Part shown: positions 15,394-34,171 of the stretch, piece by piece
Layout of the letters: each line of letters starts with the position of its first letter
Position numbering within the stretch: position 1 is the first letter of the stretch
DNA from: Alphaproteobacteria bacterium HGW-Alphaproteobacteria-7
Lineage (GTDB): Bacteria > Pseudomonadota > Alphaproteobacteria > Sphingomonadales > Sphingomonadaceae
Length of the DNA stretch: 64,000 nucleotides
Assembly: GCA_002842735.1 (NCBI GenBank)
Contig: PHEB01000005.1
Coordinates: forward strand, 1 to 64,000
Direction of reading: 5' to 3'
Notes under the pieces: generated by a model
Told to the model about the DNA's origin: nothing
Database searches by the model: none
What the model saw: the letters and a program-made list of their open reading frames with translations, nothing else
Program-made: the position numbers and the translations under genes

Positions 15394-16158
15394 ATGGAAA
15401 ACACCTCCCCCACCGATCCCGCCGCCGCGTTTGACCGCGATCCTGCCGACGGGATCATCGCCACCAGCCAGCCGCCCGGAAGCTTCCGCTATTACGATAT
15501 CGTCATGGCCGCCTTCGTGGCGATCTTGCTGCTGTCGAACCTGATCGGCGCGGCCAAGCTATCCACCGTGGCGGGATATACCTTTGGCGCGGGCATTCTG
15601 TTCTTCCCGGTCAGCTATGTCATCGGCGATGTGCTGACCGAGGTCTATGGCTATGCCAAGGCGCGGCGGGTGATCTGGACCGGGTTCGGCGCGCTCACGT
15701 TCATGGCGTTTATGAGCTTTATCGTGGTCGCCATGCCGCCCGCCGATAGCTGGGCGGGGCAGGCCGCCTACGAAGAAGTGTTCGGCAGCACCTGGCGGAT
15801 CGTGCTTGCTTCGATCACCGCGTTCTGGGCCGGGGAATTCGTCAATTCTTTCGTCATGGCCAAGATGAAGGTGCTGACCAAAGGCCGGCTGTTGTGGAGC
15901 CGCACCATCGGTTCGACCGTCGTGGGCCAAGGCGTCGACAGCCTGATCTTTTACCCGATCGCGTTCCTCGGCATCTGGACGACGCAGGATGTGCTGACCG
16001 TGATCGTCACCAACTGGGCGCTGAAAGTGGTGTGGGAAGCCATGTTGACCCCGGTGACCTATGTGGTGGTGAACAAGCTGAAGGCGGCAGAAGGGGTTGA
16101 CCTGTTCGACCTCGATACAGACTTTTCGCCCTTCGCCAGCAGCGCGAAAGCGGGCTAA
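15394..16158 (+). CDS. Queuosine precursor transporter (QueT/YhhQ family)
   Basis: 254-residue inner-membrane protein importing the 7-deazaguanine precursor used for queuosine in tRNA. Conserved family segments include AFVAILLLSNLIGAAKLS near residue 40, FPVSYVIGDVLTEVYGYAKAR near residue 80 (VUT-type signature) and IGSTVVGQGVDSLIFYPIAF near residue 180. About six hydrophobic segments are visible. The N-terminal 30 residues are polar and variable. ATG at 15394. It is convergent with ppx; the two stop codons overlap within CTAA (16155-16158). Confidence 0.88.
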   Translation: MENTSPTDPAAAFDRDPADGIIATSQPPGSFRYYDIVMAAFVAILLLSNLIGAAKLSTVAGYTFGAGILFFPVSYVIGDVLTEVYGYAKARRVIWTGFGALTFMAFMSFIVVAMPPADSWAGQAAYEEVFGSTWRIVLASITAFWAGEFVNSFVMAKMKVLTKGRLLWSRTIGSTVVGQGVDSLIFYPIAFLGIWTTQDVLTVIVTNWALKVVWEAMLTPVTYVVVNKLKAAEGVDLFDLDTDFSPFASSAKAG

Positions 16159-17687
16159 ACGAGCTCTGCGTCGGGCACGATATCGACCCGCCAGCCAAGC
16201 CCCAACCGCCCGGCGAGCAGCTTTATATCCTTTTCGGTCGACTGGCCGCACAGCGCAGCGTGGCTGTGCGCCAGTTTCAAAACCAGTGCGGTGTCTTCTA
16301 CCACCAGCCGGCTGACTTCGAGCGAGCGGCGCGACTGCGCGCCCAGCCGCCGGGCGATCCGCAGCGCCAGACCCCAGCGCACCGCCTCTTCCAGCGCCTC
16401 CTCGCTTGCGAGCGCGCGCACCCGGGCGGGAAGATTTTGCTGGTTGCCATTGGCAGAAATCGCAGCGGCGAGCATCGCCCGCTCCATGCCATTGATCCCC
16501 ACCCAGCGTTTGTGCAGCGCCCAGTTGATGGCTTGAGGCTGGCGGATGTTCGGCTCAATCTGCATCGCGGCTAGCGCCAGCATGGTCGCTGCCAGCCGCA
16601 GCCGTTCGCTGCCATGTTCGCGCGCGGGCGCCGCGTCGAGCGTCCAGGCTGCCAGCCGAGTCGCCAGCGTCGGAGCCGATCCGCGCTGGCTGGCAAACAC
16701 CGCGATCCCGGCAAGCAGCGGGTCTTGCGCCTTGGTATGCGCTGGCAGGCGATTATAAATCAGCCCTTCGCGCAGGCCCCATGATGAAAACACCACTTTC
16801 GCGGGTGCCAGCCGCGCCAGCAATGCCTGCAACAGCACGGCGGCATCGGGCAGCTTTTCAGCGCGCATCGCCGAAATCCGATCGCGGCCTTTGATCACCT
16901 GACTTTCGGTCGAGGCCAGGCTCTTTGCAAGTTCGTTCGCGGCATCGGAGCCGAGTTCGAACCCGTGCGGATCGCTAAGTGGGTATCCGCGCGCTGCCAT
17001 CGCATAGACCGCCATCGCCCGCCACGTTCCGCCGACCAGATAGAGCGCGCCGTTCGCATCAGGCGCATTGCCCGATAGATCCCATCCGGCCTTTCGGATC
17101 GCCTTGTCGAGCGACTTGTCCATCTCTGCCCGTCCGCCCTTGCGGTGATCGGGCAGGCGCAGGGTGCCCAGCGGCAGCGTGCTGGCGCTGTCGGTCTGCC
17201 CGCCAGAAACGCGCACCAGTTCAAGGCTACCCCCGCCAAGATCCGCCACGATCCCGCGTGCTTGCGGGAACGCGCCGATCACCCCGTGGGCGCTCAGCAA
17301 GGCTTCCTGCTCGCCCGTGATGACGCGCGGTTGAAGGCCGATGGCCTGTAGCTGCGCGACGAATTCAGGGCCATTGGCCGCATCGCGCACCGCTGCGGTG
17401 GCCACCGTTTCAATATCGGTGATGCCAAGATCGGACAGCAACAATGCAAACCGCCTAAGCCCGCGCAGCGCCAGCGCCATCGCTTCGTCGGCCAGCCTGC
17501 CGGTGCTGGCGATGTCTCGTCCCAGCTTGGCGGTCACCTTTTCGTTGAGTAGCACGGTGGGCGCGCGCATCGTGCCGCCATAGACGACCAGACGCACGGT
17601 GTTCGATCCGATGTCGATGATCGCGCGTTCGGGCCTGCTTCCGGCAATCACGCCGCCCAGTTCACCCCGACGTTTTGGATAGGTCAC
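16155..17687 (-). CDS. ppx: Exopolyphosphatase / guanosine pentaphosphatase family protein
   Basis: 510-residue Ppx/GppA protein releasing phosphate from polyphosphate ends (or acting on pppGpp). The N-terminal sugar-kinase/actin-like fold reads AIIDIGSNTVRLVVYGG; the second phosphate loop is GIVADLGGGSLELVRV near residue 155; and TLPLGTLRL follows. The C-terminal half is an HD-like helical domain. The GTG start at 17687 overlaps the ppk stop as TAGTG, so the pair is translationally coupled. It works opposite to Ppk1 in cytoplasmic polyphosphate turnover. Confidence 0.93.
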   Translation of the reverse strand: MTYPKRRGELGGVIAGSRPERAIIDIGSNTVRLVVYGGTMRAPTVLLNEKVTAKLGRDIASTGRLADEAMALALRGLRRFALLLSDLGITDIETVATAAVRDAANGPEFVAQLQAIGLQPRVITGEQEALLSAHGVIGAFPQARGIVADLGGGSLELVRVSGGQTDSASTLPLGTLRLPDHRKGGRAEMDKSLDKAIRKAGWDLSGNAPDANGALYLVGGTWRAMAVYAMAARGYPLSDPHGFELGSDAANELAKSLASTESQVIKGRDRISAMRAEKLPDAAVLLQALLARLAPAKVVFSSWGLREGLIYNRLPAHTKAQDPLLAGIAVFASQRGSAPTLATRLAAWTLDAAPAREHGSERLRLAATMLALAAMQIEPNIRQPQAINWALHKRWVGINGMERAMLAAAISANGNQQNLPARVRALASEEALEEAVRWGLALRIARRLGAQSRRSLEVSRLVVEDTALVLKLAHSHAALCGQSTEKDIKLLAGRLGLGWRVDIVPDAELV

Positions 17688-19891
17688 TAGGCCGCCCCCC
17701 GGCGCATGGTCAGCTTGGGCACCGCGCCCGCTTCAAGCGCCCCGCCGCGCCCCGATAGCGACGGGTTGGTCATGAAATAGCGGTGGCAGTTAAACGGCTT
17801 CACCCCATCTTCCTTGGCTGCCGTGACCCGCGAATAGTTGCCATCGGGATGCAACCACCAGCTTTGTTCGGTATCAAGCATATTGGCCAGCAGCACCTGT
17901 TGCAGCACCTGATCATGCACGGTGCGGTTGAGGATCGGGATCAGCGCTTCAACCCGGCGATCCAGATTGCGGCTCATCATGTCCGCCGAAGAGATGAACA
18001 CCGCCGCCTGCGCGCTCGGCAGGGCGTGCCCATTGGCAAAGGCATAGATGCGGCTGTGTTCAAGGAAGCGGCCGATGATCGATTTGACCCGAATATTTTC
18101 CGAAAGGCCCGCCACCCCGGGGCGCAAACAACAGATGCCGCGCGTAATCAGTTCCACCTGCACCCCGGCGTTGCTGGCGGCATAGAGCCGGTCGATCACG
18201 CCTTCATCGGTCAGCTGGTTGCACTTGAACCAGATCGCCGCTGGCTTGCCTGCCTGCGCATGGGCGATCTCGATATCGATCCGGCGATAGATTTCGGCGC
18301 GCAGATCGATCGGCGCGATGTGGATGCGCTCAAGCGCATGGGGTTCGACATAGCCAGTGACGAAATTGAACATCTTGGCCGCATCGCGCCCCAGTTTGGG
18401 GTCGGCGGTGAAGAAGCTCAGATCGGTGTAAACCTTGGCGGTGACAGGGTGATAATTGCCGGTGCCAAAATGGCAGTAAGTGCGGAAACTTTCGCCCTCG
18501 CGGCGCACTACCATCGCCACCTTGGCATGGGTTTTCCAGTCGGTGAAACCGTAGATCACCTGCACCCCGGCGCGTTCAAGCTTGCTCGCCCATTTGAGGT
18601 TCTGCTCTTCGTCAAACCGGGCTTTCAATTCGACCACGGCCGTGACCGATTTGCCCGCCTCTGCCGCTTCGATCAGGGCATTGATTACCGCGCTTTGTGA
18701 TCCCGCGCGGTAGAGCGTCTGCTTGATCGCCACGACATCGGGATCGGCGGCGGCCTGCCGGATGAAATCAACCACCACCTCGAAACTTTCGTAGGGGTGG
18801 TGGATGATGATGTCCTTTTCGCGGATCGCGGAAAAGGCATCGCCGTCATGTTCGCGGATGCGTTCGGGAAAGCGCGGCGAATAGGCGTCAAACTTCAGAT
18901 CAGGCCGGTCTTCGCGGACGATTTCGGCCAGCCCGTCAATCCCGATCATCCCATCGGTCTTGATCACCGCGGCTTCATTGATACCCAATTGTTCAAGCAG
19001 CAGCGCCTCGGCGGCAGGATCGAAATCCTCCTCCAGTTCCAACTGGATCACCTGCCCGCGGCGGCGGCGCTGGATTGCGCTGCGGAAGGTGCGCACCAGG
19101 TCTTCGGCCTCTTCCTCGATTTCGATATCGCTGTCGCGCAGCACGCGGAACAACCCGTCGCCTTCGATCGTGAAGCCGGGGAACAGCGCGGCGGCATAGC
19201 GCTGGATCAGCCGGGCGATCGAAATATACAGCACCCCGCTTTCGCCCGTCACCCTATTCGGCACCCGCACAAACCGCGGCAGGGCGCTGGGGATCAGCAC
19301 CATTTCGATCAATTGTTCGTTTGTCTCGTCGCGGGTCAGCGTGAACAGCAGGCCCATGCCTTCGTTCTGGACGAAGGGAAAAGGATGCGCCGGGTCGAGC
19401 GCCTGCGGGGTGATGATCGGCAGGATTTCTTCAAGGAAGAACGCTTTCAGCCACTTGTAGGCGGCAGGGCTGATGCGCTGTTCATCGGCAATGTGGATAT
19501 CGGCCCCGGCCAGTCCATCGCGCACCGAACGCCAGATCGCTTGCTGGCGCTGCGACAATTCAGCAAGCTTTTGCCGGATCGCGGCGAGTTGCTGCGAAGG
19601 GCTGCGCCCATCGAGCGACGGTGTTTCCAGCCCGCGCTGCACCTGCCCGACCAGACCCGCCACGCGGATCATCATGAATTCATCAAGATTGCTGCCCGAA
19701 ATCGACAGGAACCGCAGGCGTTCCAGCAGCGGATATTGTTCGTTGCAGGCCTCTGCCAGCACGCGCTGATTGAATTGCAGCCACGATAGCTCGCGGTTGA
19801 AATAGGGCGATTCGTCAGGGCCAAGTTCAGCCATCTGCACAGCGCCTGCGCTGACGGAAACATCCTCAGTGGCAATCGGTGACGTGCTCAT
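17687..19891 (-). CDS. ppk: Polyphosphate kinase 1
   Basis: 734-residue membrane-associated enzyme that reversibly polymerises the gamma-phosphate of ATP into polyphosphate. Family landmarks: YFNRELSWLQFNQRVLAEA (N domain, ~residue 30), IIHHPYESFEVVVDFI, AIKQTLYRAGSQSAVI, the first catalytic His region CHFGTGNYHPVTAKVYTDLS, and the second near EHSRIYAFANG. Start ATG at 19891. It is upstream of ppx and downstream of the virB operon on the same strand. The 159-bp upstream gap contains TGTCA-type half-sites (see 19985-20009), making phosphate control conceivable but unproven. Confidence 0.95.
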   Translation of the reverse strand: MSTSPIATEDVSVSAGAVQMAELGPDESPYFNRELSWLQFNQRVLAEACNEQYPLLERLRFLSISGSNLDEFMMIRVAGLVGQVQRGLETPSLDGRSPSQQLAAIRQKLAELSQRQQAIWRSVRDGLAGADIHIADEQRISPAAYKWLKAFFLEEILPIITPQALDPAHPFPFVQNEGMGLLFTLTRDETNEQLIEMVLIPSALPRFVRVPNRVTGESGVLYISIARLIQRYAAALFPGFTIEGDGLFRVLRDSDIEIEEEAEDLVRTFRSAIQRRRRGQVIQLELEEDFDPAAEALLLEQLGINEAAVIKTDGMIGIDGLAEIVREDRPDLKFDAYSPRFPERIREHDGDAFSAIREKDIIIHHPYESFEVVVDFIRQAAADPDVVAIKQTLYRAGSQSAVINALIEAAEAGKSVTAVVELKARFDEEQNLKWASKLERAGVQVIYGFTDWKTHAKVAMVVRREGESFRTYCHFGTGNYHPVTAKVYTDLSFFTADPKLGRDAAKMFNFVTGYVEPHALERIHIAPIDLRAEIYRRIDIEIAHAQAGKPAAIWFKCNQLTDEGVIDRLYAASNAGVQVELITRGICCLRPGVAGLSENIRVKSIIGRFLEHSRIYAFANGHALPSAQAAVFISSADMMSRNLDRRVEALIPILNRTVHDQVLQQVLLANMLDTEQSWWLHPDGNYSRVTAAKEDGVKPFNCHRYFMTNPSLSGRGGALEAGAVPKLTMRRGAA

Positions 19892-20050: not shown

Positions 20051-21064
20051 TCATACCAGATCCCGGCTATCGGCAATCTGCGTGATCCCGCGTTTGCCAT
20101 TGGCATCGCGGCCCAGTTGCACGATCACGTCGATCACGCTGGCGGCATAGGCGATGGTGTCTGACCGCGTCAGGCCAATCCCGGTCTGCATCACCATCAG
20201 CGACAATTGTTCGAGCGCGCCGCGCAAGCTATTGGCGTGAATGGTCGAAAAACTCCCCGGATGCCCGGTGTTGATCGCGCGCAGGAAACTGACACTTTCC
20301 GCGCCGCGCAATTCGCCCAGAACGATCCGGTCGGGCCGCAGTCGCAAGGCGGCTTGCAGCAATTCATTGGCGGTGACTTTGGCCTCGCCCAGTTCCCCCT
20401 TGATCGCGACCAGGCCGACCGCGTTTTCTCCCGGAAACTTCAACTCGGGCGTGTCTTCCACCATCACCACCCGTTCAGCGCGCGGGATTTCGCCGAGCAT
20501 CGCGTTGAGAAAGGTGGTCTTGCCGGTGCTGGTGCCGCCCGAAATCAAAATCGTGCGCCGCGCGCCGATCGCTGCGCGCAGAAAAGCAATCGGCTGCGCC
20601 TGCGGGTCGGGCAGGTCGACATGGCCCTCGCCCACCAGCGGGCCGGTATCATAAGCATCAAGCGGCAGGTCGAGCCGCCGGTGGCGGCGGATTGCCATCA
20701 CCCAATGCTTGCGGCTGGCAGGCGGGCCGCAGAACTGCACCCGCGCGCCATCTGGCAAGGTGGCACCCAGCAGCGGGTGTTCGCGGTTGATCCCTTGGTG
20801 CGAAACGCGCGCGACCTGTTCGGCGAGGCGCTGCACCAGCCGGTCATCAATCTCAGGCGTATCAATCCGCTGCATCCCCGGATTCGACGCATCCTCAATC
20901 CACACTTCGCCGGGGCGGTTGACCATGATTTCGGTCACGGTGTCACGATCAAGCCAGCGGCGGAACGGCGCGAGATAGGCGTCAAGATAGACGCTGCGTT
21001 CGGCGCTCAGCGCGGCGCTGTCAGGCTCCTCACCCATGCCCAGCCGGTGAATATCCGCGCTCAC
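20051..21064 (-). CDS. virB11: VirB11-type secretion ATPase
   Basis: About 337-residue hexameric ATPase powering type IV secretion. The N domain contains DRDTVTEIMVNRPGEVWIED; the C domain has Walker A (ISGGTSTGKTTFLN), the Asp box VVMVEDTPELKFPG, Walker B region RPDRIVLGELRGAES and the His-box GHPGSFSTIHANS. The GTG at 21064, 4 bp after the virB10 stop, is taken as start; an ATG at 21037 is possible. Last gene of the virB operon; no terminator is obvious before the ppk promoter region. Length and motifs are intact. Confidence 0.9.
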   Translation of the reverse strand: MSADIHRLGMGEEPDSAALSAERSVYLDAYLAPFRRWLDRDTVTEIMVNRPGEVWIEDASNPGMQRIDTPEIDDRLVQRLAEQVARVSHQGINREHPLLGATLPDGARVQFCGPPASRKHWVMAIRRHRRLDLPLDAYDTGPLVGEGHVDLPDPQAQPIAFLRAAIGARRTILISGGTSTGKTTFLNAMLGEIPRAERVVMVEDTPELKFPGENAVGLVAIKGELGEAKVTANELLQAALRLRPDRIVLGELRGAESVSFLRAINTGHPGSFSTIHANSLRGALEQLSLMVMQTGIGLTRSDTIAYAASVIDVIVQLGRDANGKRGITQIADSRDLV

Positions 21065-21068
21065 GGGG

Positions 21069-22202
21069 TCAGTTACCGACGGTGCTGAAATCGAGATCGC
21101 GCGCGGTGAACACCCGGATCGGTTCGCCCATGCGCACGCGGATGGTGGGGCTGATTTCGCCGTTGGCCTGCACCGCCGAACTCGCCGCTCCTTGCGCGCC
21201 GCCCGCAACGATCACGCCGCCGACGCCGCCGGTTGCAACCGCGCCCAGCCCGCCGATCACCGAAAGGAGCAGGCCCGATCCGAAGCGTTTGAAGAAGTGG
21301 CTGTTGACGTCACCTTCGAGGCCCGTCGTCCCGTCAAACCCGATCGCGGGTGATGCAAGGTTGACCGATGCGCCATCCGGCCGGATCAGCCGCGTCCAGA
21401 TCACATAGGCGCGCCGCTGACCCTGCTGCACGCCCGCCTGATACTGCCCGATCAGCCGCGACGAACGCGGGACGAGAATGCGCTTGCCATCAAAACTGCG
21501 CACATCCTGGCTCACCACCGCGCGGACAAAGCCCGGAACATCGGTGTTGATCGCGGTTTCAAGGATCGCGGGGATCAGAGTGCCTTCGGTCACCGTGGTC
21601 GAAGGATTGGTCATCGGCCGCGCCTGTGCAGGCGCGCCGCCCACCCCGCCGATACGGCTGGCAAAGGCGGCCGCACCGCCGGTGCCTGCCACATCACCCG
21701 CCGCGCTGCCTGCCGGTGCGCCCAACGGAGCCTCGGCAAGGCGCGAGGCGCTGGCGGCGCGGCTGGCATCGAACACCAATTGCGGGCTGGCATAGGGATT
21801 GATCGCCGCGCCCGGCATCATCGCGGGATTATTGGCCAGCACGGGCGCAGGCGCGGGATCGGGCTGCGGTTGGGCTGGTTGCAACGCAGGATCGGCCACG
21901 GGCTGCACCGTCGCAGGCGCAGCGGCCTGCGCCGGCGCGACGGCGGGATTGCCGATCCCCTGCGGTTCGGGCGTGCGTGCCGAATTCATCGCCCAGAACG
22001 TGGTCGCGCCCAGCAGCGCCACCAAAGCTACCCCAACCGCTAGCCCAAGGCTGTCACCTTTCGCCTTGCGGTCGGTAACAGCCGGAAACGCCGCGCGGCT
22101 GGCGAGATCGATGATTTCCGCCGATTCGCGTTCGCGCGGATCAACCGCTTCGCTACCTGCTCCATCGCCCTTTTTTGGCGGTAAACGCATGGCCAGACGC
22201 AT
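21069..22202 (-). CDS. virB10: VirB10-like (TrbI family) core-complex protein
   Basis: 377-residue bitopic protein spanning both membranes in type IV secretion cores. After a ~60-residue cytoplasmic tail there is one transmembrane helix (LGLAVGVALVALLGATTFWA), a Pro/Ala-rich periplasmic linker (~90-145) and a C-terminal TrbI beta-barrel domain: TEGTLIPAILETAINTDVPG, RSFDGKRILVPRSSRLIGQY, and the antenna/pore region GGLGAVATGGVGGVIVAGGA. The ATG at 22202 has AAGGAG upstream. It follows virB9 with a 40-bp gap; no virB7-like lipoprotein fits there. Confidence 0.9.
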   Translation of the reverse strand: MRLAMRLPPKKGDGAGSEAVDPRERESAEIIDLASRAAFPAVTDRKAKGDSLGLAVGVALVALLGATTFWAMNSARTPEPQGIGNPAVAPAQAAAPATVQPVADPALQPAQPQPDPAPAPVLANNPAMMPGAAINPYASPQLVFDASRAASASRLAEAPLGAPAGSAAGDVAGTGGAAAFASRIGGVGGAPAQARPMTNPSTTVTEGTLIPAILETAINTDVPGFVRAVVSQDVRSFDGKRILVPRSSRLIGQYQAGVQQGQRRAYVIWTRLIRPDGASVNLASPAIGFDGTTGLEGDVNSHFFKRFGSGLLLSVIGGLGAVATGGVGGVIVAGGAQGAASSAVQANGEISPTIRVRMGEPIRVFTARDLDFSTVGN

Positions 22203-22242
22203 TATTCGGTCTCCTTGGCGAAGTGAATGTGGTTCGAAATCA

Positions 22243-23043
22243 TCACGATCCCCGCTTGCCCGACAGCCCGGCGCTGCGCGCCGACGGAGCGGCAGAGCCG
22301 GTATTGGTGAGCGTGGCGGTATCTCGGCCCGAACGCAGGATGATCTGCGGCGGCACCCCGTCAACCACCACCGTATCCCCGCGCACGGTGAAGTTGACCG
22401 GGCCTTCATCGCCGTCGTCATTGGTCACGAGAATGGCCGGGATCGCGGTGCCCGTGGGCCAGCTCAGGAACACTGCATCGCCATCGTCAAAGGCGCGGCT
22501 GGGCAGCAGTTCAACCGCGCCCGCGCTGGCCCATGCGAAGTTCAGACTAGCCGGATCGGACACCGCATAGGGATCATTGGCAGCCGCCAGTTCCAGCGGG
22601 TTGGCCGCCGCGCGCAAGGCTTCCACCTCCGCCTCAGCCGCCATTGCAAGCCGCGCTTCTTCCTCGGCTTTTTCCAGCTCGGGGTAGCGGAATTGCAGCA
22701 CGTAAAGCGGGGCATTGCGCGGGGATGCGACCAGATCGAACAGGTAGGTGCGCCGGTCTGTCACCACCGTCATATTGGTGCGGGCAGCGGGTTCGAGCGG
22801 TTTGACGAACAGGATCGTCTGCGCCTTGTTGGGCTGCACCTGCCACGCCGCACTGTCCCCGATGGCGACGTTTTCGATCACTTCATCGGGGGCGAATTTG
22901 ATGGTGGTCTGCACCTTCACCTTGCCATCGATCCGCACCACGGCGGCCTCATCATAGACCAGCGTTTGCAGGCGGGCATCCTGCGCCGCAACAGGCGCGG
23001 TCAGCGCGAAGGCGAGCGCGGGGAGAATCACGGCGCGGATCAT
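22243..23043 (-). CDS. virB9: VirB9-like (TrbG/CagX family) outer-membrane core protein
   Basis: 266-residue periplasmic protein with a signal peptide (cleavage after ALTAPVAAQD), an N-terminal domain containing YDEAAVVRIDGKVKVQTTI and DRRTYLFDLVAS, a central coiled segment rich in Glu/Ala, and a C-terminal domain with LSWPTGTAIPAILVTNDDGDE and GVPPQIILRSG that would contact VirB7/VirB10. Its ATG at 23043 overlaps the virB6 stop. In classical operons virB8 sits between virB6 and virB9; here there is no room for it. Confidence 0.88.
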   Translation of the reverse strand: MIRAVILPALAFALTAPVAAQDARLQTLVYDEAAVVRIDGKVKVQTTIKFAPDEVIENVAIGDSAAWQVQPNKAQTILFVKPLEPAARTNMTVVTDRRTYLFDLVASPRNAPLYVLQFRYPELEKAEEEARLAMAAEAEVEALRAAANPLELAAANDPYAVSDPASLNFAWASAGAVELLPSRAFDDGDAVFLSWPTGTAIPAILVTNDDGDEGPVNFTVRGDTVVVDGVPPQIILRSGRDTATLTNTGSAAPSARSAGLSGKRGS

Positions 23044-24239
23044 TGGTAGGTCTCCGGTGGGGTGGTCATGGCGGGCTTGGCCCCGCCTTTGGTATTGCTG
23101 GCCGAACGGAAGCGGTTGCCGATGCCGCGGGTGCGCGAAGTGGCGGGGTTCAGGGGCACCACCTGTCCGCCACCAGACGTGGCAAAGACGTGTGTTTCAC
23201 GTGAAACATTGCCCGCAGACCCGGTGTCATTGGCGGCAAGCGCGGGCGAAGGGGTGCCTAGGTCGACCCTGCGCGGGGCAAGGACGGGATTGCCAGACGC
23301 GATATTCGTGCTGCGCGGCGTGGTCGCGGCGATCACCGATGCGGGCGCGGCGCGCGGGGCATCATTGCTGCGGCCAGGTTGCTTGTCCGGCACCAGCCCG
23401 AACACCTGCCAGCCCGAAACCATCGTGCCCGCCACCTTCAACGCCATGCACATCAACGCCATGTGCACCGCGCCGACCAGAAAGAACGCCATCGCCGCCT
23501 GCTGATCGATCTGCCCCGGCACCGCCACCAGCGCAGCGAGGATCGGCACCGCGAGTTCCAGCATGATCGACCCGCCCAGCACCGCGAACAGCGGCGCCAG
23601 CGCCATCATCGTCAGCCCCTTGAGCCAGCCGGTAAACAGCCCGCGCGTGCCTTCGAACAAGGCCAGCACCACGAAAATCGGCCCCACCGCGAGCAGCAGC
23701 GCCAGCGCAATCCGCGCCGCCACCAGCAGGCCCACCGTGCCAAGCAGCAGCAGCATCGCGCCAAACCACATCATGCCCGGCGGCGAGAAGGCGTTGATAT
23801 CCTTGGTATCTCCGCTCGCCTGCTGGATCGCGAGGAACACCACGTCGAGTTTCTGCGCGAACACCGCCGTGGCGCTTTCACCGCGCACGCCAGTCAGTAT
23901 GCCCGCGATTTGATCCGGCCCGCCGATGAAGATGTTGTAGAAAATCGTCGAAAACGCCACGAAACTGGTGGCAAAACCCATCACCAGCCCCAGCGTGATC
24001 ACCTTGGGCAGCAGCGCGCGCACGCCAAGGTTGGATCGCCCCAGCATCAGCGAAATCGCAAAGAAGCTGACATAGAGCACCAGCATCAGCGTCAACGCGA
24101 AGGTCAGCTGGCCTTCGGTGCCGAACAGCCGGTTGAACGCCTGTTCGGATACCCCGCTGGCGATGCAGTCCACCGCTGATAGCGCGGCGGCCACCCCGGT
24201 ACCCATTGACTGGGCGGCCAGATCGCACGCGGTGGTCAT
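23040..24239 (-). CDS. virB6: VirB6-like (TrbL/VirB6 family) inner-membrane channel protein
   Basis: 399-residue polytopic protein. A short N-terminal periplasmic part is followed by several hydrophobic segments: GQLTFALTLMLVLYVSFFAIS, LPKVITLGLVMGFATSFVAF, GMMWFGAMLLLLGTVGLL and others. The conserved family Trp (GTRGLFTGWLKGL) is near residue 215. From ~300 the C terminus is a polar, low-complexity tail with no membrane segments. The ATG at 24239 overlaps the virB4 stop (ATGA). The tail codes for a perfect parS site (23193-23208), read as VSRET. Confidence 0.82.
   Translation of the reverse strand: MTTACDLAAQSMGTGVAAALSAVDCIASGVSEQAFNRLFGTEGQLTFALTLMLVLYVSFFAISLMLGRSNLGVRALLPKVITLGLVMGFATSFVAFSTIFYNIFIGGPDQIAGILTGVRGESATAVFAQKLDVVFLAIQQASGDTKDINAFSPPGMMWFGAMLLLLGTVGLLVAARIALALLLAVGPIFVVLALFEGTRGLFTGWLKGLTMMALAPLFAVLGGSIMLELAVPILAALVAVPGQIDQQAAMAFFLVGAVHMALMCMALKVAGTMVSGWQVFGLVPDKQPGRSNDAPRAAPASVIAATTPRSTNIASGNPVLAPRRVDLGTPSPALAANDTGSAGNVSRETHVFATSGGGQVVPLNPATSRTRGIGNRFRSASNTKGGAKPAMTTPPETYQ
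23193..23208. other. parS: parS site (ParB binding site), copy 2, inside virB6
   Basis: TGTTTCACGTGAAACA is identical to the copy at 153-168 and to the bacterial parS consensus. It lies within the disordered C-terminal tail region of virB6, where the extra residues would be tolerated. ParB spreading from this site could affect transcription of the virB operon. Confidence 0.9.
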
Positions 24240-26674
24240 TCCGCGGCCTGCCAGACGGGCTGGCCGTCCCCATCCACCGCGCCATCGGGCCACTCGCGCC
24301 CGGTCAGCGCTGGATACCACGCCGCAGGCTCATCCCCCACTGCTTCGCGCAGCAGATCGAGCCGCCTGACCGCGCTTTCACGGCCTGACAGGATGGTGAG
24401 CACCTCCGGCGCGCCCGACAGGTCGAGCCGCACCACCACGGATGCATCGGGCTGACGCACAAGGAAGCAGCGCGAATGCGCGGGGAGCGAGCGGATCAGT
24501 GCGAATTCGTGGCTCGTCAACCCGAACCCGTCGCAGTAATCTTCGGGCCGGGCGCGCGAATTGGGCATGAACACCATCGTCGCGGTCTGTTCGACCAGCG
24601 CGGTCGAAATCCGGCTGTCGAGCGCATCGCGCGCGCTTTGCGTGGCAAAACCGACCAGCGCGTTGCGTTTGCGCAGCGTCTTGAGCCAATCGCGGATGCG
24701 CGCGGCGAACACCTCGTCATCCAGCGCCTTCCAGCCTTCATCGATCAGGATCATGGTCGGCTGACCATCCAGCCGTTCATCGATGCGGTGGAACAGATAC
24801 ATCATCGTCGGCGTGCGCAGGCGCGGGTTTTCGAGCAGCGCGGTCATGTCAAAGCCGAGCACGCGCTCCGACAAGTCGAGCCGGTCGCGTTCGTTGTCGA
24901 ACAGCCAGCTATGTTCGCCGCCCTCTTGTCCATTGGCCCCGATCCACGCCGCCAGCCGATCCGCCAGATCGCCCGGTGTCGGGCGACGCGCGCCCGCGAG
25001 CAGTTCCTTGAAGTGGCGCAGCCGCCGCAGCGATGGATCATTGGCATAGGTCGCATCAACCGCCGCGCTGATGGTCGAAAATTCCTCAGGCCCATCGGCC
25101 TTGAGCAACACTGCCAGCCAATCGCGCAGGAACGCACGGTTGGCGGGGGCATCGGGCAGGATGAGCGGGTTGAACCCGGTGGGCATCCCCGGCGCGATCC
25201 GGTCATAGCGCCCGCCGATCCCGCGAATGAACAGCTCTGCCCCGCGATCCTTGTCGAACAGGATGGTGCGCGGTTTGAACTTCTGCGCTTGGGCTGCAAG
25301 GAAGTTCATCACCACGGTCTTGCCCGAACCGGATGGCCCGATGACCGAGAAATTGCCCAAGTCCCCGTGGTGGAAATTGAAGAAGAACGGGGTGGCGCTG
25401 GTGGTTTCCAGCAGCGTCACCGCATCGCCCCAGTGGTTGCCACTCGCCTGCCCCAGCGCAAAGCCGTGGAACGACCCGAAGCCCGCCATATTGGCCGAGG
25501 ATATCAGCGCACGGCGCACAATATATTCCTCGTTCCCCGGAAACTGCGCCCAGAACGCGGGTTCAAGGTTGGTGTCCTCACGTACCGCAATCGCGCCGGT
25601 ATCGGCCAGCGCCGCCGCGCAGGACGCCATGGCGTCATCAAGCCGGGGGAGCGAGCGTTCACGCACCAGCACGGTAAGGTGATGGTCGCCGAACCCGACC
25701 GCGCCATTGCCCAGCGCATCGCGCGCCGCCATCATGTCTGCGCGTTCGGCCGCGGCTTCCTCATCCACCGAACGCGACCGGCGCAGCGCAAGGTCGATGC
25801 GTTCTTTCGCCGTGGTGCGTTCGTTCGGGGCGTAGCTTTCCGTCACCACCATTTCGAACGGCAGGCGCAGCAGGTTATCGAGCAGGCCGGGCGAGGTCGC
25901 CTCGGGGTAGTCTTTCAGCCCGAGGATCGCGGCGAAATCGGGCGCGGCTGACCCGCGCAGCTCCATCGCATCAAGGCCAAAACTGGCGCGGCGATAGGGC
26001 AGCATATGGCCGATATCGGTCTCGGGCGCAGGACGGCGCACCGGGCGCATTTCGCCATTATAGAGCGCCGAGAGCAGCTCCAGCATCTCGGAATTCGTGC
26101 CTGCCGAGCCGGGCGCCTGATAATCCCCCAGCACCACCGCGCCGTAATTTTGCAGCGAGGCGACGAGGCCCGTGATCGCGGCCTTGAGGCTGCGGATGTC
26201 CTTGGGGTCGGCCTCAAGCTCATCCTGACGGCTGCGTGAGAACAGTTTGGAGAGCCGCTCGGGCAATCCGGTTTTGCCGCGCGCGGGGCGGCGGATCAGG
26301 GTGACGAACTGATCGTTGATAAACAGCGATCCCCCCGCCAGCCGCTGTTTCCAGCGCGCGTCGATATGGCGCGACAGGGCATCGGGGAACTCGGCGTCCA
26401 GCTCCACCTCCACGCGGCGGCGGATGACGTGGTGATACATCACAAACCGCGCGTCGAGGGTTGAGCGCAGCATCACCTCTCGCGTGGCGGCGTGGGCGTT
26501 CAGCGCATCGGAATCCTCGGTTTCAAACAGCAACCCTGGCACCTGAATCGCGCTCATCACCGATCCATCGCGCAGCAACACGGTGTTTTCGTCGATCAGC
26601 CGCGCATAGGGCAGCCGGTCGCCCACGCGCGCTTCCTTCGCGCTCCAAGCGGCGGCTCCGATCCACTTCTTCAT
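24236..26674 (-). CDS. virB4: VirB4-type secretion ATPase
   Basis: 812-residue ATPase, the largest energy component of type IV secretion. The N-terminal CagE/TrbE/VirB domain covers ~1-400. Walker A is VIGPSGSGKTVVMNFLAAQ near residue 435, Walker B TMILIDEGWKAL near residue 640, followed by RKRNALVGFATQSARDAL. Start ATG at 26674; 12 bp separate it from virB3. Length and motifs are those of a functional protein. It overlaps virB6 by 4 bp. Confidence 0.95.
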   Translation of the reverse strand: MKKWIGAAAWSAKEARVGDRLPYARLIDENTVLLRDGSVMSAIQVPGLLFETEDSDALNAHAATREVMLRSTLDARFVMYHHVIRRRVEVELDAEFPDALSRHIDARWKQRLAGGSLFINDQFVTLIRRPARGKTGLPERLSKLFSRSRQDELEADPKDIRSLKAAITGLVASLQNYGAVVLGDYQAPGSAGTNSEMLELLSALYNGEMRPVRRPAPETDIGHMLPYRRASFGLDAMELRGSAAPDFAAILGLKDYPEATSPGLLDNLLRLPFEMVVTESYAPNERTTAKERIDLALRRSRSVDEEAAAERADMMAARDALGNGAVGFGDHHLTVLVRERSLPRLDDAMASCAAALADTGAIAVREDTNLEPAFWAQFPGNEEYIVRRALISSANMAGFGSFHGFALGQASGNHWGDAVTLLETTSATPFFFNFHHGDLGNFSVIGPSGSGKTVVMNFLAAQAQKFKPRTILFDKDRGAELFIRGIGGRYDRIAPGMPTGFNPLILPDAPANRAFLRDWLAVLLKADGPEEFSTISAAVDATYANDPSLRRLRHFKELLAGARRPTPGDLADRLAAWIGANGQEGGEHSWLFDNERDRLDLSERVLGFDMTALLENPRLRTPTMMYLFHRIDERLDGQPTMILIDEGWKALDDEVFAARIRDWLKTLRKRNALVGFATQSARDALDSRISTALVEQTATMVFMPNSRARPEDYCDGFGLTSHEFALIRSLPAHSRCFLVRQPDASVVVRLDLSGAPEVLTILSGRESAVRRLDLLREAVGDEPAAWYPALTGREWPDGAVDGDGQPVWQAAE

Positions 26675-26686
26675 GTCCGGGCTTCC

Positions 26687-26971
26687 TTACGGCGCATAGG
26701 AATTGCATCCCCAGCGTTTGAAATTGGGCACGCGCGGACATTTGCTGACCTTGGTGATCCACAGGTCGAAAACGCGCGGTTCGCGCAGCGAAGCGAAATA
26801 GCCGATCACGTGCATCACAATCGGCACGGGAATGACCCAGAAGCTGTCGAGGATCAGGAACGCGATCGTCGTCACCATCAGGTTGATGACGAAGAAATTC
26901 ATCGTCACGCCTGCAAACATTTGCGGGCGGGTCAGGGTCCGGTGGACAGGTTGGCGAACCAGATCGGTCAT
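26687..26971 (-). CDS. virB3: VirB3-like inner-membrane protein
   Basis: 94-residue protein, MTDLVRQPVHRTLTRPQMFA, then two hydrophobic helices (FFVINLMVTTIAFLILDSF and IPVPIVMHVIGYFAS) and the conserved REPRVFDLW with a Cys-containing tail. This is the typical VirB3 layout; the protein docks VirB4 to the membrane. The ATG at 26971 overlaps the virB2 stop as ATGA. Confidence 0.9.
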   Translation of the reverse strand: MTDLVRQPVHRTLTRPQMFAGVTMNFFVINLMVTTIAFLILDSFWVIPVPIVMHVIGYFASLREPRVFDLWITKVSKCPRVPNFKRWGCNSYAP

Positions 26972-27267
26972 AGGCCGCTGATGCTCGCCACCAGCCGTGG
27001 TGCGCCGAAGATAATGAACACACCGACGATCACGGTTCCGCCATACCGCCAGTTCATCCGGCCAGTCAGCATCATGAAGCCGACTCCCGCAACGGCCATT
27101 ACCGCAAGGCTCGTCGCCACAGGGCCAAGTAAAATGTTCTGCATCCAACGAAGCGCATTCGTAATCGGGTCATCCCCCTGCGCAGTCTGCGCAAATGCGG
27201 CAGAAGGGGTAAGCGCCAGCATCAGCAGCGCGGCAAGGTGGGCAGGAAGGCGAAGCAGCGACATCAT
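26968..27267 (-). CDS. virB2: VirB2-like pilin
   Basis: 99-residue protein with an N-terminal signal (cleavage probably after PSAAFA) and two hydrophobic segments separated by a short basic loop (GRMNWRYGG), the organisation of VirB2/TrbC pilins. The mature part starts near QTAQGDDPITNALRWMQNIL. The gene lies 42 bp after virB1. Its presence indicates that a pilus or pilus-like stalk could be made. Confidence 0.88.
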   Translation of the reverse strand: MMSLLRLPAHLAALLMLALTPSAAFAQTAQGDDPITNALRWMQNILLGPVATSLAVMAVAGVGFMMLTGRMNWRYGGTVIVGVFIIFGAPRLVASISGL

Positions 27268-27309
27268 TTATTTATCCAGACCTTCAGATACATGGCGATC
27301 ATCCGCCGG

Positions 27310-27933
27310 TTATTGTGCAGCCGGGCGCGCATGGTTGGCAAGCCGTCCCATGATCGCCGCAACATATTGCTTTGTCTCGCGGATATTGGGAACGCCGCCC
27401 GCGCGCTCAACCCGCCCCGGGCCGGCATTATAGGCGGCGAGCGCCTTTTCCAGGTCGCCGTCAAACCGGTCGAGCTGTTCACGCAGGTATCGCGCCCCGC
27501 CTTCGAGATTGGCGAAGGGATCATCGGCATTCACGCCCAGATAACGCGCCGTCCCCGGCATCAATTGCGCAAGGCCGCGCGCGCCGACCGGCGACACTGC
27601 GTTTTCACGCCAGCGGCTTTCCTGCCACACCACCGCTTCGAGCAAGCTGGGCGACAGGTCGAACCGCGCGGCCAAGGCGTTGATGGTGGCGGCATAGCGC
27701 GGCGGCACGCCTGCGGCATGGAGCGCTGGATCGGCAATCGCGGAAGCGGGGAGCATCAGACCTCCCGGAAAATTGGCATCAAGTTCCGGCGATGCAGCAG
27801 GCGCGCCCGCCAGCGGCCCGGCCACCCAACGCGCGCCATCGGGGCCAAGCTCAAGCACATCGGCGCGCGCGCCGGTCGCAAGACCCAGCAGCGTGGCAGC
27901 AATCGTGACGCGGCTTATCGCGGCGAGAATCAT
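27310..27933 (-). CDS. virB1: Lytic transglycosylase, VirB1-like
   Basis: 207-residue periplasmic enzyme that opens peptidoglycan for assembly of the secretion apparatus. The signal peptide ends near GLATGARA. The SLT domain (residues ~85-200) shows the catalytic Glu in LEAVVWQESRWRENA and the motifs SPVGARGLAQLMPGTARYLG, NLEGGARYLREQL and ALAAYNAGPGRV. GGAGGG precedes the ATG at 27933. It is the first gene of the operon; its promoter region contains a consensus-matching PHO box 38 bp upstream. Confidence 0.9.
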   Translation of the reverse strand: MILAAISRVTIAATLLGLATGARADVLELGPDGARWVAGPLAGAPAASPELDANFPGGLMLPASAIADPALHAAGVPPRYAATINALAARFDLSPSLLEAVVWQESRWRENAVSPVGARGLAQLMPGTARYLGVNADDPFANLEGGARYLREQLDRFDGDLEKALAAYNAGPGRVERAGGVPNIRETKQYVAAIMGRLANHARPAAQ

Positions 27934-27971
27934 GTCCCAGCCCTCCAGAATGTCCCCTTTGTCTAACCTAA

Positions 27972-27989
27972 ATGACAGTCAGGTGACAG
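27972..27989 (-). promoter_or_regulatory. PHO box upstream of the virB operon
   Basis: On the minus strand 27989-27972 reads CTGTCACCTGACTGTCAT: two 7-mers, CTGTCAC and CTGTCAT, separated by 4 bases, matching the PhoB direct-repeat consensus at every position. It is oriented toward virB1 and ends 38 bp before its ATG, as expected if PhoB replaces the -35 element. It predicts induction of the virB operon by phosphate limitation. Confidence 0.75.
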
Positions 27990-28101: not shown

Positions 28102-28512
28102 TTATTCGCGATAGGTCAGTTGTTCGCTGCGCATATTGGCCGGGCGAAACTCGCCGCGGTCGAGCATCTTGATCGCCTTGCGCGCCAACCGCCGCGAATC
28201 GGTGGTGGTGCCATCGGCGGTATCGAGTTCAATCACCTCACGGCTGGCGAGTGCCGCTTCGAATGCGGTGCGGGCCTTGGTCTCGTTGCCGGCTTGGGCA
28301 TAGGCGATCCCCAGGTTGATCAGCAGTGCGGGATCATTGGGATCGGCAGCGCTGGCTTTCTCCAGCACCATCAGCGCCTGATCCACCCGTCCGGCAGAAA
28401 GCGGCTGGGCGGCGAGTTCGTTTGCCGCAACCGGCGGCTGCAATTGCGCCGCAGACGGTTCTGCCAGCGGTGCGGCGGCGATCAACGCAATGGCGAAGGC
28501 GGTCATGGACAT
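28102..28512 (-). CDS. TPR-repeat periplasmic protein
   Basis: 136-residue protein with an N-terminal signal sequence and one to two tetratricopeptide repeats (ALMVLEKASAADPNDPALLI followed by NLGIAYAQAGNETKARTAFE), including the family's Leu-Gly-Ala-Tyr-Ala pattern. TPRs mediate protein contacts. The C terminus is polar. ATG at 28512, with GAGGGAG upstream. It lies between the virB promoter and the lipoprotein gene and has its own start; no PHO-like box is seen in front of it. Specific function unknown. Confidence 0.75.
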   Translation of the reverse strand: MSMTAFAIALIAAAPLAEPSAAQLQPPVAANELAAQPLSAGRVDQALMVLEKASAADPNDPALLINLGIAYAQAGNETKARTAFEAALASREVIELDTADGTTTDSRRLARKAIKMLDRGEFRPANMRSEQLTYRE

Positions 28513-28836
28513 GGGCGAAGCTCCCTCTTCAACTGACGAGCATGATGACCCGGATCAGCAAGGGATGCAACAAAACTGAAACATTGTAATATTTCTGTAA
28601 TGCAAAACCATAGGTGGCTGGTTTTATTGTATATTAATGTGACTTGCGTGCCCGTCGCAGCTGCCGCCGCGCGATTCCTTCGTGGTCATATTTGTCTTTC
28701 TTCGGTCATAATCGCCTAACTGCCACATAGCTGTAATTCTGCAAGAATTCTGTCACGCACCAACCCTAGCGAGCATCAGGCGCACATCGTTCGTCGCGCT
28801 TGATTCGATTCTCGGCCATTGAGGGGACCGCTCGCT
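28513..28836. promoter_or_regulatory. Divergent intergenic region with two PHO-like boxes before the lipoprotein gene
   Basis: This 324-bp gap is AT-richer than its surroundings. On the plus strand TTGTCTT-TCTT-CGGTCAT (28692-28709) and CTGCCAC-ATAG-CTGTAAT (28720-28737) each have the 7-4-7 architecture of a PHO box, with 11 of 14 positions matching the consensus. A further CTGTCAC lies at 28749-28755. They are 80-145 bp upstream of the lipoprotein start. They are imperfect individually, but clustered and correctly oriented. Confidence 0.5.
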
Positions 28837-30441
28837 GTGAAAAATATTCAACGCTCTTTCGTTCTGGGTTGCAGCCTGATTGCACTGGCTGGCTGCGGAG
28901 CGGATGAAATCGTCTCGCCGGGTACCAGCGGCGACATCATCATCAACAACCCGACGCCGCCCGCGCCCACACCGACGCCCACGCCCACACCGACGCCCAC
29001 GCCCACACCGACGCAGTCGCTCGTCATCCCGGCGGCAGGATGCCCGACCATCGCGTCGACCGGCGGCCTGACCGATGCCGGCACTATCAGCGGCCCGACC
29101 GGCACCTATCGGGTGTGCCGCCTGCCCGAAACCTTCAACGTCAGTGATAACCTGCCATTCGTCAGCGGTCTGCTCTACCAGATCCAGGATCGCGTGAATG
29201 TCGGCGTTGACCGCGGCTTCAACAGCACCGGAACCGCTGCCACGCTCTCGATCGAACCAGGCGTAATCCTGTTTGCGCAGGCCAATTCGTTCTTCGTGGT
29301 CAATCGCGGCAACGCCATCCAGTCGAACGGAACCGCGGATCGCCCGATCATCTGGACCAGCCGTGACAATGTTATCGGCCTCACCAACGACAACAGCCAG
29401 CAACAATGGGGCGGCGTCGTGCTGCTGGGCCGCGCACCGGTTTCGGATTGCAACACCGGTGTGTTCAACACTGATGCCGCGCCGAACGCCAACCCGCAGT
29501 GCGAACAGCAGCTTGAAGGCACAGCAGTGGCAACGCCCTATGGCGGGTCGAACAGCGCCGATAGCTCGGGATCGTTCACCTTCAACCAGATCCGCTTTTC
29601 GGGCTTTGAACTTGCACCGGGCAACGAACTTCAGTCGCTCACCACCGGCGGCATCGGTTCGGGCACCACAATCAGGAACCTGATGTCGTTCAACAGCTCG
29701 GACGACGGTGTTGAATTCTTCGGCGGCACGGTCAACGTCACCAATATCGCGGTGATCGGGGCGTCGGACGATTCGCTTGACGTTGACACCGGCGCGCAGG
29801 CGAACCTTGAAAACGTGGTGGCGGTGCAGCGTGCCAGCACCGGCGACGCGCTGATCGAACTCGATTCGCCCAACAGCGCATCACTGCCGATCACCGCGCG
29901 CCCGCTCACGCGGATGCGGGTCAACAACTTCACCTTTGTGCAGCGTTCAACCACGTCCCCCCAGATGATCCGCGCACGCGGCGGTGCGGCGCTCGGCCTC
30001 ACCAACGGGGTAATGGACAAGGTCGATGGTGACGGATCGTTCTGCTTCCGCATCGACGAACAGGAAACGCTCGACGCGCTGCTGGCGATCAACTCGGTCG
30101 TCTGTGATGGCGGCACCACGCGTCAGGCCCGCGGTGATCGTTCCGCCGGTGCAAACGCCACCACCGATGCCGAAGTGCTGGCAGGCGTAACGGCGGGAAC
30201 CAATGTCAACCTGGCTTTCGCCATCACGCTGACCGGCGGGATCGTGAATGGTGCCAATGAAACTGCGGTGACTGCGTTCGATGCGACTGGCCTTGCGGCG
30301 ATCTTCACCGCCCGGCCAGGCATCGGTGCGGTTCAGAGCGGAGCAGACCTGAACGCCTTCCGCAACTGGACCTGCAACTCCTCGATCCAGGATTTCGGCA
30401 GTTCGACCGGCGCTTGCACGACACTGCCCGTATTCAGCTGA
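28837..30441 (+). CDS. Large outer-membrane-associated lipoprotein with Pro-Thr linker
   Basis: 534-residue lipoprotein. The signal peptide ends in the lipobox LAGC (Cys near residue 20). A (Pro-Thr)n linker occupies about residues 44-60, and the rest is rich in Asn, Thr, Gly and Ser with many short beta-prone stretches (e.g. IQSNGTADRPIIWTSRDN), suggesting a right-handed beta-helix. Four Cys occur in the middle and end. The GTG start at 28837 is preferred: GAGGGGA lies 9 bases upstream. It precedes a TonB receptor on the same strand, so it may act as its surface-exposed substrate-binding partner. PHO-like boxes lie upstream. Substrate unknown. Confidence 0.7.
   Translation: MKNIQRSFVLGCSLIALAGCGADEIVSPGTSGDIIINNPTPPAPTPTPTPTPTPTPTPTQSLVIPAAGCPTIASTGGLTDAGTISGPTGTYRVCRLPETFNVSDNLPFVSGLLYQIQDRVNVGVDRGFNSTGTAATLSIEPGVILFAQANSFFVVNRGNAIQSNGTADRPIIWTSRDNVIGLTNDNSQQQWGGVVLLGRAPVSDCNTGVFNTDAAPNANPQCEQQLEGTAVATPYGGSNSADSSGSFTFNQIRFSGFELAPGNELQSLTTGGIGSGTTIRNLMSFNSSDDGVEFFGGTVNVTNIAVIGASDDSLDVDTGAQANLENVVAVQRASTGDALIELDSPNSASLPITARPLTRMRVNNFTFVQRSTTSPQMIRARGGAALGLTNGVMDKVDGDGSFCFRIDEQETLDALLAINSVVCDGGTTRQARGDRSAGANATTDAEVLAGVTAGTNVNLAFAITLTGGIVNGANETAVTAFDATGLAAIFTARPGIGAVQSGADLNAFRNWTCNSSIQDFGSSTGACTTLPVFS
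28966..29013 (+). repeat. 18-bp direct repeats coding the Pro-Thr linker
   Basis: The unit CCCACACCGACGCCCACG occurs at 28966-28983 and 28984-29001 and partly from 29002. It encodes PTPTPT. Such an array can expand or contract without a frameshift, changing linker length. Confidence 0.8.
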
Positions 30442-30499: not shown

Positions 30500-30555
30500 C
30501 CGGCTGATGACAACCGGTGATTTCCCAAGGCCTATTCATGAAGGGGTCTAACATT

Positions 30556-33455: not shown

Positions 33456-34130
33456 TCAACCTAAATCGAACACATATCCCAATGATCGCACGGTGCGCAG
33501 CGGGTTGCCGCCGCCAGCCGCCTTGATCGACCGCCGCAGCCGTCCGATCCACACATCGACGGTGCGTTCATCAATCGGCGGTTCGCGCTTGCCCAGTCCG
33601 TTGATCAGATCATCGCGGGTCAGCACGCGGTTGGGGTTTTCGGCGAAGAAGCGCAGCAACCGGAATTCATTGGGCCGCAGCACAATCGGCTCACCATCCC
33701 AGCGTGCCTGCAACGCCGCCATGTCGATGGTGAGCGCGCCCAGTTCAAACCGGCGGGTTGCGCTGCGTTCGCTGGCGCGTGATTGCAGCGCCAGCACCCG
33801 GTCAAGCACGGCGGTGCGGGTGAGCGGGCCGACAACATAATCATCCGCCCCTGCCCGCAAGGCGCGGCGGCGGTCTTCGGGATCATCTTCTTCCAGCACC
33901 ATCGTGACATGCGCGTCCGCGGTGCGCGGATCGGCGCGCAACCGGCGGCACATTTCGAGGCCCGCAAGGTCGGGCAGCACCCAGTCGATAAACGCCCACA
34001 TCGGCCCTTCAACCAGCCGCCGCGGGCCTTCTGGCCCCAGCCGGTCAAAGGTGAAACGGCGATGATCATGGACGAAATCCTCAAGGCTTTCGCCCAGCTC
34101 ATTCGTCAGAAAGATATTGACGACATCCAT
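33456..34130 (-). CDS. PhoB/OmpR-type response regulator with degenerate receiver domain
   Basis: 224-residue protein: receiver (~1-115) plus winged-helix DNA-binding domain (~130-224, with RPNEFRLLRFFAENPNRVLTR and ERTVDVWIGRLRRSIKAAGG, GYVFDLG). The phosphorylatable Asp is kept (FIDWVLPD, residue 49), but the acidic pair at the N terminus is absent (VNIFLTNELG), the switch Ser/Thr position is Leu (TMVLEED) and the invariant Lys is Gly (DDYVVGPLT). Such receivers usually work without phosphorylation. ATG at 34130; a TTG two codons earlier is less likely. No histidine kinase is adjacent. The protein is distinct from canonical PhoB but is a candidate regulator of the neighbouring PHO-like promoters. 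Confidence 0.85.
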   Translation of the reverse strand: MDVVNIFLTNELGESLEDFVHDHRRFTFDRLGPEGPRRLVEGPMWAFIDWVLPDLAGLEMCRRLRADPRTADAHVTMVLEEDDPEDRRRALRAGADDYVVGPLTRTAVLDRVLALQSRASERSATRRFELGALTIDMAALQARWDGEPIVLRPNEFRLLRFFAENPNRVLTRDDLINGLGKREPPIDERTVDVWIGRLRRSIKAAGGGNPLRTVRSLGYVFDLG

Positions 34131-34171
34131 GTTCAAACTGCCCCGGTTTATCGTCGGAGTGGCTGATCGAT

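Follow-up and report, generated by a model that had tools for sequence, protein, structure and literature searches.

A conserved PHO box before a VirB-type operon of sphingomonads, and a possible exchange of secretion machines at a lipoprotein locus

Introduction

In Caulobacter crescentus a lipoprotein produced under phosphate starvation, ElpS, and a TonB-dependent receptor are reported to be encoded upstream of a type II secretion system (T2SS), on which the secretion of ElpS depends; the receptor gene is described as constitutive, and the same gene order is given for Sphingomonas alaskensis (PMC2996285). The T2SS itself is listed in the PhoB regulon of Caulobacter (PMC11208175). A different machine, a VirB-type type IV secretion system (T4SS), is found at the locus considered here, which lies in a window of 64,000 nucleotides (positions 1 to 64,000 of contig PHEB01000005.1) from Alphaproteobacteria bacterium HGW-Alphaproteobacteria-7, a member of the Sphingomonadaceae. 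Between positions 20,051 and 27,989 of the window an eight-gene virB operon on the minus strand is headed by a PHO box, the direct repeat of PhoB-controlled promoters. This operon is very probably under phosphate control, and there is about an even chance that the VirB machine stands in for a T2SS in secretion.

A conserved chromosomal T4SS has been described in Erythrobacter, where a copy is reported in all 14 strains, with a virB4 said to have evolved in step with the genomes; for five strains the T4SS is described as followed, in order, by a TonB transporter and an iron ABC transporter (PMC4919336). The virB locus of the window is most likely this same system. In the main text of that paper the word phosphate is absent, and its account of the T4SS takes up neither a PHO box nor a T2SS. 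Full-text searches covered phosphate control of T4SS, T4SS in Erythrobacteraceae and sphingomonads, ElpS with T2SS, and T2SS and T4SS together with phosphate limitation, the last of which gave no matches. By titles and the starts of abstracts, none of the matches listed deals with a virB operon headed by a PHO box or with an exchange of T2SS for T4SS, subscription papers lying mostly outside this scope.

The PHO box of virB1 and its conservation

The box lies at 27972..27989 on the minus strand and reads CTGTCAC-ctga-CTGTCAT, with 38 bp between it and the ATG of virB1 (27933). PHO boxes were scored against the strict repeat CTGTCAT-N4-CTGTCAT, or with C or T permitted at the seventh base of each half, as the consensus of the half-sites allows. 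The virB1 box scores 13/14 against the strict repeat and 14/14 with C or T at the seventh base; the match at all 14 positions announced by a first-pass annotation of the window holds in the second scoring and not in the first, and the orientation and spacing are as that annotation had given them. It is the top-scoring PHO box of the window, and in the 2.66-Mb genome it is the sole zero-mismatch match to CTGTCANNNNNCTGTCAY, for which the reversed control pattern gave 0, as well as to CTGTCAYNNNNCTGTCAY. Sites with at most two mismatches number 50 genome-wide, against 22 for the reversed control pattern; a weak PHO box by itself therefore means little, and conservation in relatives was used as the test.

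Within -100..-20 of virB1, a sense box scoring 12/14 or better was found in 46/51 scorable same-genus loci (that of the window included) and in 25/37 loci from other genera, virB1 matches that miss more than the first 30 residues of the query or have short upstream DNA being excluded; one locus from another family (L089) is left out here and in the comparison by lipoprotein below. The antisense control reached this score before virB1 in 0/51 and 1/37 loci, and no sense box of at least 12/14 stands before virB2, 3, 4, 6, 9, 10 or 11 in the same loci. Random 80-mers from these loci, true boxes included, reached 12/14 in 299 of 100,000 draws (0.3%). Among 80 named loci, many of the same species as the first set and hence not independent of it, virB1 is present in 71, with a box of at least 12 in 64 of those. 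Presence of the box upstream of virB1 in related genomes, on which the earlier inference of phosphate control had been made to depend, is thus the state of most loci across the family, and the inference is strongly supported.

The virB1 box is retained in 61/65 loci that have the lipoprotein gene described below in the fetched stretch, versus 9/20 loci without it; 85 of the 88 loci are kept for this comparison, those with less than 2.5 kb upstream being excluded together with virB1 matches that miss more than the first 40 residues (L086, L200, L202). A VirB9 orthologue occurs in 58/60 other same-genus genomes (G037 has none, G045 a distant match only) and, across the family sample, in about 40 genera, VirB4 is 80-97% identical among the fetched same-genus loci, and the order regulator, TonB receptor and lipoprotein, TPR protein, virB1 to virB11, ppk, ppx is largely kept in those fetched loci that are long enough.

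A column profile was made from 72 loci, most of them of one genus, that had been picked for having a box of at least 12/14. Here the TGTCA cores show at least 97% conservation, to which this selection contributes, and the four spacer bases only 35-64%. The box is followed across these loci by a stretch resembling TTAGGATAGACA, the family consensus, which in the window reads TTAGGTTAGACA (27960..27971, minus strand) and is probably the -10 region. Its position is as expected for a promoter in which the box would replace the -35 element.

Five related VirB operons (L189, L198, L200-L202), whose VirB4 is 64-67% identical, were also found. Neither a relaxase nor VirD4 was recognised by Pfam among 20 selected flanking ORFs of these operons. 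Possibly a T4SS of this kind was already present in the family and was then brought under PHO control in the present clade, at the lipoprotein locus. In one of the five, genes for a phosphoesterase (PF04185) and a MauG-type cytochrome peroxidase (L189:4425-7779) are divergent from the VirB operon and have a 12/14 PHO-like box in their own direction.

Gene content of the virB operon

The operon consists of virB1, 2, 3, 4, 6, 9, 10 and 11, in agreement with the first reading of its eight genes; all were assigned with Pfam, and of seven tried on NCBIfam six matched. All lie on the minus strand. The lytic transglycosylase (SLT) gene virB1 (27310..27933) is followed by virB2 for the pilin (TrbC/VirB2; 26968..27267), virB3 (26687..26971) and virB4 for an ATPase (24236..26674), which reaches 711 bits against the TIGR00929 cut-off of 643. 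Then come virB6, encoding the inner-membrane channel protein (23040..24239), virB9 for the outer-membrane core (CagX/VirB9; 22243..23043), virB10 for a core-complex protein (21069..22202) and virB11 for a second ATPase (20051..21037; 294 bits, above the VirB11 cut-off). The start codons of virB3, virB6, virB10 and virB11 were chosen by eye, the mechanical ORFs of the last two running to 22421 and 21208, respectively. VirB9, VirB10, VirB6, VirB2 and VirB3 are all above their Pfam cut-offs; VirB9, VirB10, VirB3 and VirB2 fall below those of NCBIfam, where VirB6 has no match.

Neither virB5 nor virB7 was seen in the tightly packed operon, and no genome-wide search was made for either. VirB8 has no gene in the operon and no match to its family (PF04335) in the whole of the window's own genome (G000). 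This family has matches in 6/25 genomes searched; in the four same-genus carriers (G004, G007, G009, G013) VirB8 is encoded away from the present locus, near a second, distant VirB9. For the VirD4-type coupling protein (PF10412), G000 has two weak matches of about 50 residues, with 23.3 and 19.8 bits at a cut-off of 20.5, whereas full-length matches in other genomes reach 450-506 bits. With VirB8 unmatched and the VirD4-type matches short and weak, the virB locus does not look like a complete conjugation system, though no search for relaxases was made. Elsewhere in the same genome, a second, partial VirB4-like match contains an internal stop (L033, G000:C5:82513-82770).

VirB and type II loci across the family

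Because ElpS and its receptor are encoded beside the T2SS in Caulobacter, the lipoprotein-TonB pair that adjoins the virB operon was sought beside T2SS genes in sphingomonads. Of 20 T2SS loci taken from family members, 8 have homologues of the pair. Two of these were looked at in detail: gspC, D and E come directly after the receptor gene in L313, and a transporter gene stands between the receptor and gspC in L302. Boxes upstream of these eight lipoprotein genes score 12-13/14 in three cases and 10-11 in five, the best antisense scores being 8-10.

The two machines were then counted in 99 family genomes, VirB being scored by a VirB9 orthologue of at least 200 bits, the T2SS by a secretin over its cut-off and the lipoprotein at E <= 1e-30. 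VirB is present in 38 genomes, the T2SS in 47 and both in one. The lipoprotein is encoded in 34/38 VirB genomes, in 35/47 T2SS genomes and in 0/15 genomes with neither machine, and its gene has different neighbours in the two groups, lying within 13 kb of virB9 in 28/34 and of gspD in 21/35. In the genome of the window the T2SS secretin gave no match at E <= 1e-40. The sole genome with both systems, G177 (locus L312), belongs to genus g105; another member of that genus, G296 (L182), has a VirB locus without matches to the lipoprotein, the receptor or the TPR protein and keeps a 12/14 box.

That VirB and T2SS came to exclude each other in many independent events was considered and rejected, since in a midpoint-rooted RecJ tree of 29 genomes (G112 excluded, its piece being a fragment) the VirB genomes form one clade (100/100). 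For the same reason, p-values computed as if the genomes were independent come out too low. The exchange would be best read as mainly one event; the nearest sampled outgroups of the VirB clade, G100 and G174, have the TPR protein, the lipoprotein, the TonB receptor and the T2SS together. The lipoprotein tree, for which same-genus sequences were thinned to every third, has a different shape: the T2SS-linked lipoproteins L296, L302 and L308 fall among VirB-linked copies. Since the two groups are mixed in it, the lipoprotein gene probably moved between VirB and T2SS genomes, which fits interchangeable machines and also a lipoprotein that needs neither of them.

Neighbouring genes

The surroundings of the operon correspond to the first-pass annotation, which had placed ppk and ppx downstream and, on the other side, a TPR protein, a lipoprotein/TonB pair with PHO-like boxes and a PhoB-like regulator with a box of its own. 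The TPR protein (28102..28512, minus strand, Pfam) is encoded upstream of virB1 on the same strand; in the 20 fetched T2SS loci its homologue adjoins the lipoprotein in two (L302, L313) and lies at the far end of a third (L296).

The lipoprotein gene (28819..30441, plus strand) is divergent from the virB operon and encodes 540 aa, with a lipobox recognised by eye. Two PHO-like boxes, of 12/14 and 11/14, precede it at 28720..28756 on the plus strand, further 11/14 boxes being at 28584 and 28692; a box of at least 11/14 stands before this gene in 26/40 same-genus and 14/27 other-genera loci. The protein has no Pfam or NCBIfam match, and a sequence search against solved structures gave nothing useful. 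Its predicted structure is a parallel beta-helix (mean pLDDT 83.5, the first 58 residues low), for which Foldseek returned no match at E <= 0.001 whereas with VIA-align 2 numerous parallel beta-helix proteins of varied function, including tailspikes and alginate epimerases, aligned at Z up to 22; because these structural neighbours differ in function, only the fold is claimed. The TonB-dependent receptor that is its partner (30517..33273, plus strand) was assigned by profile search and by comparison with the T2SS loci. On the lipobox, the receptor partner and the homologues beside T2SS genes, the lipoprotein is proposed to be of the ElpS type.

Downstream of the operon, on its strand, ppk for polyphosphate kinase (17687..19891) and ppx for exopolyphosphatase (16155..17687) follow. 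No sense box of at least 12/14 precedes either gene in same-genus or other-genera loci; at 11/14 there is one before ppk in 1/48 same-genus and 0/20 other-genera loci, and before ppx in 2/48 and 3/22. The two genes were therefore rejected as PHO targets, the box not being conserved. In a number of other-genera loci ppk and ppx were not seen in the fetched stretch.

PhoB, its paralogue and the pst cluster

The regulator gene of the window (33456..34136, minus strand, with a probable start at 34130) does have a PHO-like box, of 11/14 at 34172-34189, and is not phoB itself: its product scores 148.8 bits against the PhoB family cut-off of 296.2. The sole PhoB over this cut-off in the genome (341.5 bits) is encoded on another contig (G000:C5:56842-57510), in a cluster with a histidine kinase and with pstC, pstA, pstB and phoU, the last four read by eye. 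The window's regulator is thus a divergent PhoB paralogue, whose receiver keeps the phosphorylated Asp but no longer the acidic pair, Thr and Lys positions that take part in receiver function, while its DNA-binding half remains close to PhoB. It is linked to the virB locus in many genomes, with a PHO-like box of at least 11/14 in 14/21 same-genus and 12/21 other-genera loci, and it may help or tune the control of virB. PhoB itself is the simpler candidate for binding to the virB1 box. Sense boxes of 11-12/14 precede pstC in 10/11 same-genus pst loci and phoB in 7/11; none was found in two pst loci from other families.

Two further genes of the same genome have PHO-like sequences. On contig C12 four half-sites spaced by 11 bp (L147:3014-3053) stand about 65-104 bp before a gene for a TonB-type outer-membrane protein, which is a probable further PhoB target. 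On contig C33 a gene of the phosphate-selective porin O/P family (L144:2101-3612) has a PHO-like box of 11/14 just upstream and another, of 13/14, inside the gene on the opposite strand.

Discussion

The reading preferred here is that, under phosphate starvation, PhoB or the adjacent paralogue would act on the PHO box before virB1 and turn the operon on. Its product would be a VirB-type T4SS, encoded on the chromosome and with no recognisable coupling protein, placed where many other sphingomonads keep a T2SS next to homologous genes for the TPR protein, the lipoprotein and the TonB receptor. It would most likely do the same kind of work, carrying Sec- or Tat-exported proteins out of the periplasm to the surface under phosphate shortage; the neighbouring beta-helix lipoprotein would be the first candidate substrate. 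More tentatively, and with less than even confidence, an ancestor of the Erythrobacteraceae may have lost a T2SS that was phosphate-controlled and encoded next to the ElpS-type lipoprotein and its TonB receptor. A minimal VirB T4SS with neither VirB8 nor VirD4, governed by the PHO box, would then have replaced it in place and taken over export of the lipoprotein and of scavenging enzymes from the periplasm.

Several observations weigh against this reading. The virB1 box is weak or absent (below 12/14) in 5/51 and 12/37 loci, and the boxes of pst and phoB are weaker than that of virB1. The related operons L189, L198 and L200-L202 have no matches to the TPR protein, the lipoprotein, the receptor or ppk, and a PHO box was not found in any of the three that could be scored. 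One VirD4-type match of about 50 residues in the window's genome is just above its cut-off (23.3 vs 20.5 bits). In 10/38 VirB genomes the lipoprotein is absent or encoded elsewhere, and in 14/35 T2SS genomes it lies away from gspD; in G177, which has both systems, it is near VirB. The mutual exclusion rests mainly on one clade, so that a Fisher p of 7e-14 overstates it. The lipoprotein tree mixes the groups with 4 changes, at least 3 of them forced, and the protein may work without either machine. Finally, export of a lipoprotein by a T4SS would be unusual.

Other roles for a PhoB-controlled T4SS have to be considered. DNA uptake, which the first-pass annotation had offered beside the secretion of enzymes, would make it a ComB-like machine importing DNA as a phosphorus source or for transformation. 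A coupling protein is unnecessary for this purpose; however, VirB11 present with VirB8 not found is the reverse of what Helicobacter ComB has. The prediction that such T4SS serve natural transformation is repeated in PMC4919336. ComEC is present in G000 and in 29/31 genomes searched, but also in all 12 other-family genomes, which are without a close VirB9, and no ComEC match was obtained in G002 and G008, both of which carry the operon's VirB9. Uptake would also leave unexplained why the lipoprotein pair otherwise goes with a T2SS; because of this association secretion is favoured over DNA uptake, which appears quite improbable. Delivery of effectors into other cells, in competition for phosphate, is unlikely as well. 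It would draw on the components from VirB1 to VirB11, pilin and both ATPases included, and would reduce the T2SS connection to an accident of one lineage, as the mostly single phylogenetic event behind the exclusion and the mixed lipoprotein tree would allow; yet known killing or effector T4SS of the VirB/D4 kind use VirD4, for which there is no good match, and the lipoprotein is found in none of the 15 genomes with neither machine.

The box may also be real and answer to another activator, either the adjacent PhoB paralogue or a different regulator of the OmpR family, with a different signal. The linkage of the paralogue in many loci and its frequent PHO-like box (14/21 and 12/21) would suit this, as would a receiver without the acidic-pair, Thr and Lys positions joined to a DNA-binding half close to PhoB. 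However, the pstC and phoB promoters have the same kind of box, and that of virB1 persists where the paralogue was not found in the fetched stretch, for example in L081 and L082, so that this explanation is rather doubtful. Least of all does the locus look like the remnant of a conjugation machine with no present role: VirB8 and a good VirD4 match are indeed missing from G000, but the VirB9 orthologue in 58/60 other same-genus genomes, the 80-97% identity of VirB4 and the conserved promoter box make this very improbable.

The papers found give no tested function or signal for this T4SS. The PHO box indicates a growth condition in which to look for a function, and the lipoprotein a first substrate. 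If the proposed exchange were true, it would be a natural case in which a secretion machine gave way to an unrelated one at a single regulated locus, and would bear on the choice of periplasmic substrates by T4SS without coupling proteins and on phosphorus scavenging in aquatic bacteria.

Among described systems, the secretion T4SS Ptl and Brucella VirB, which are without VirD4, and Helicobacter ComB work without a coupling protein; all three have VirB8, and ComB is without VirB11. The T4SS of the window is like them in having no recognisable coupling protein and differs from them in that VirB8 was not found, and from ComB also in the presence of VirB11. For the Agrobacterium VirB/D4 T4SS, Winans is said to have reported in 1990 that a regulator gene is induced by phosphate starvation; this control is indirect, on virG. 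VirB components and a link to phosphate starvation are common to the two systems, but in the window the box stands directly at the head of the virB operon, in which VirB5, VirB7, VirB8 and VirD4 were not found. With Caulobacter crescentus the machine differs, being type II there and a VirB T4SS here, where the T2SS secretin is unmatched at E <= 1e-40; the setting is alike, since in both a secretion operon has as neighbours the genes for a lipoprotein of the phosphate-starvation kind and for a TonB receptor, and this operon belongs to the PhoB regulon in Caulobacter (PMC2996285, PMC11208175) and very probably does so here.

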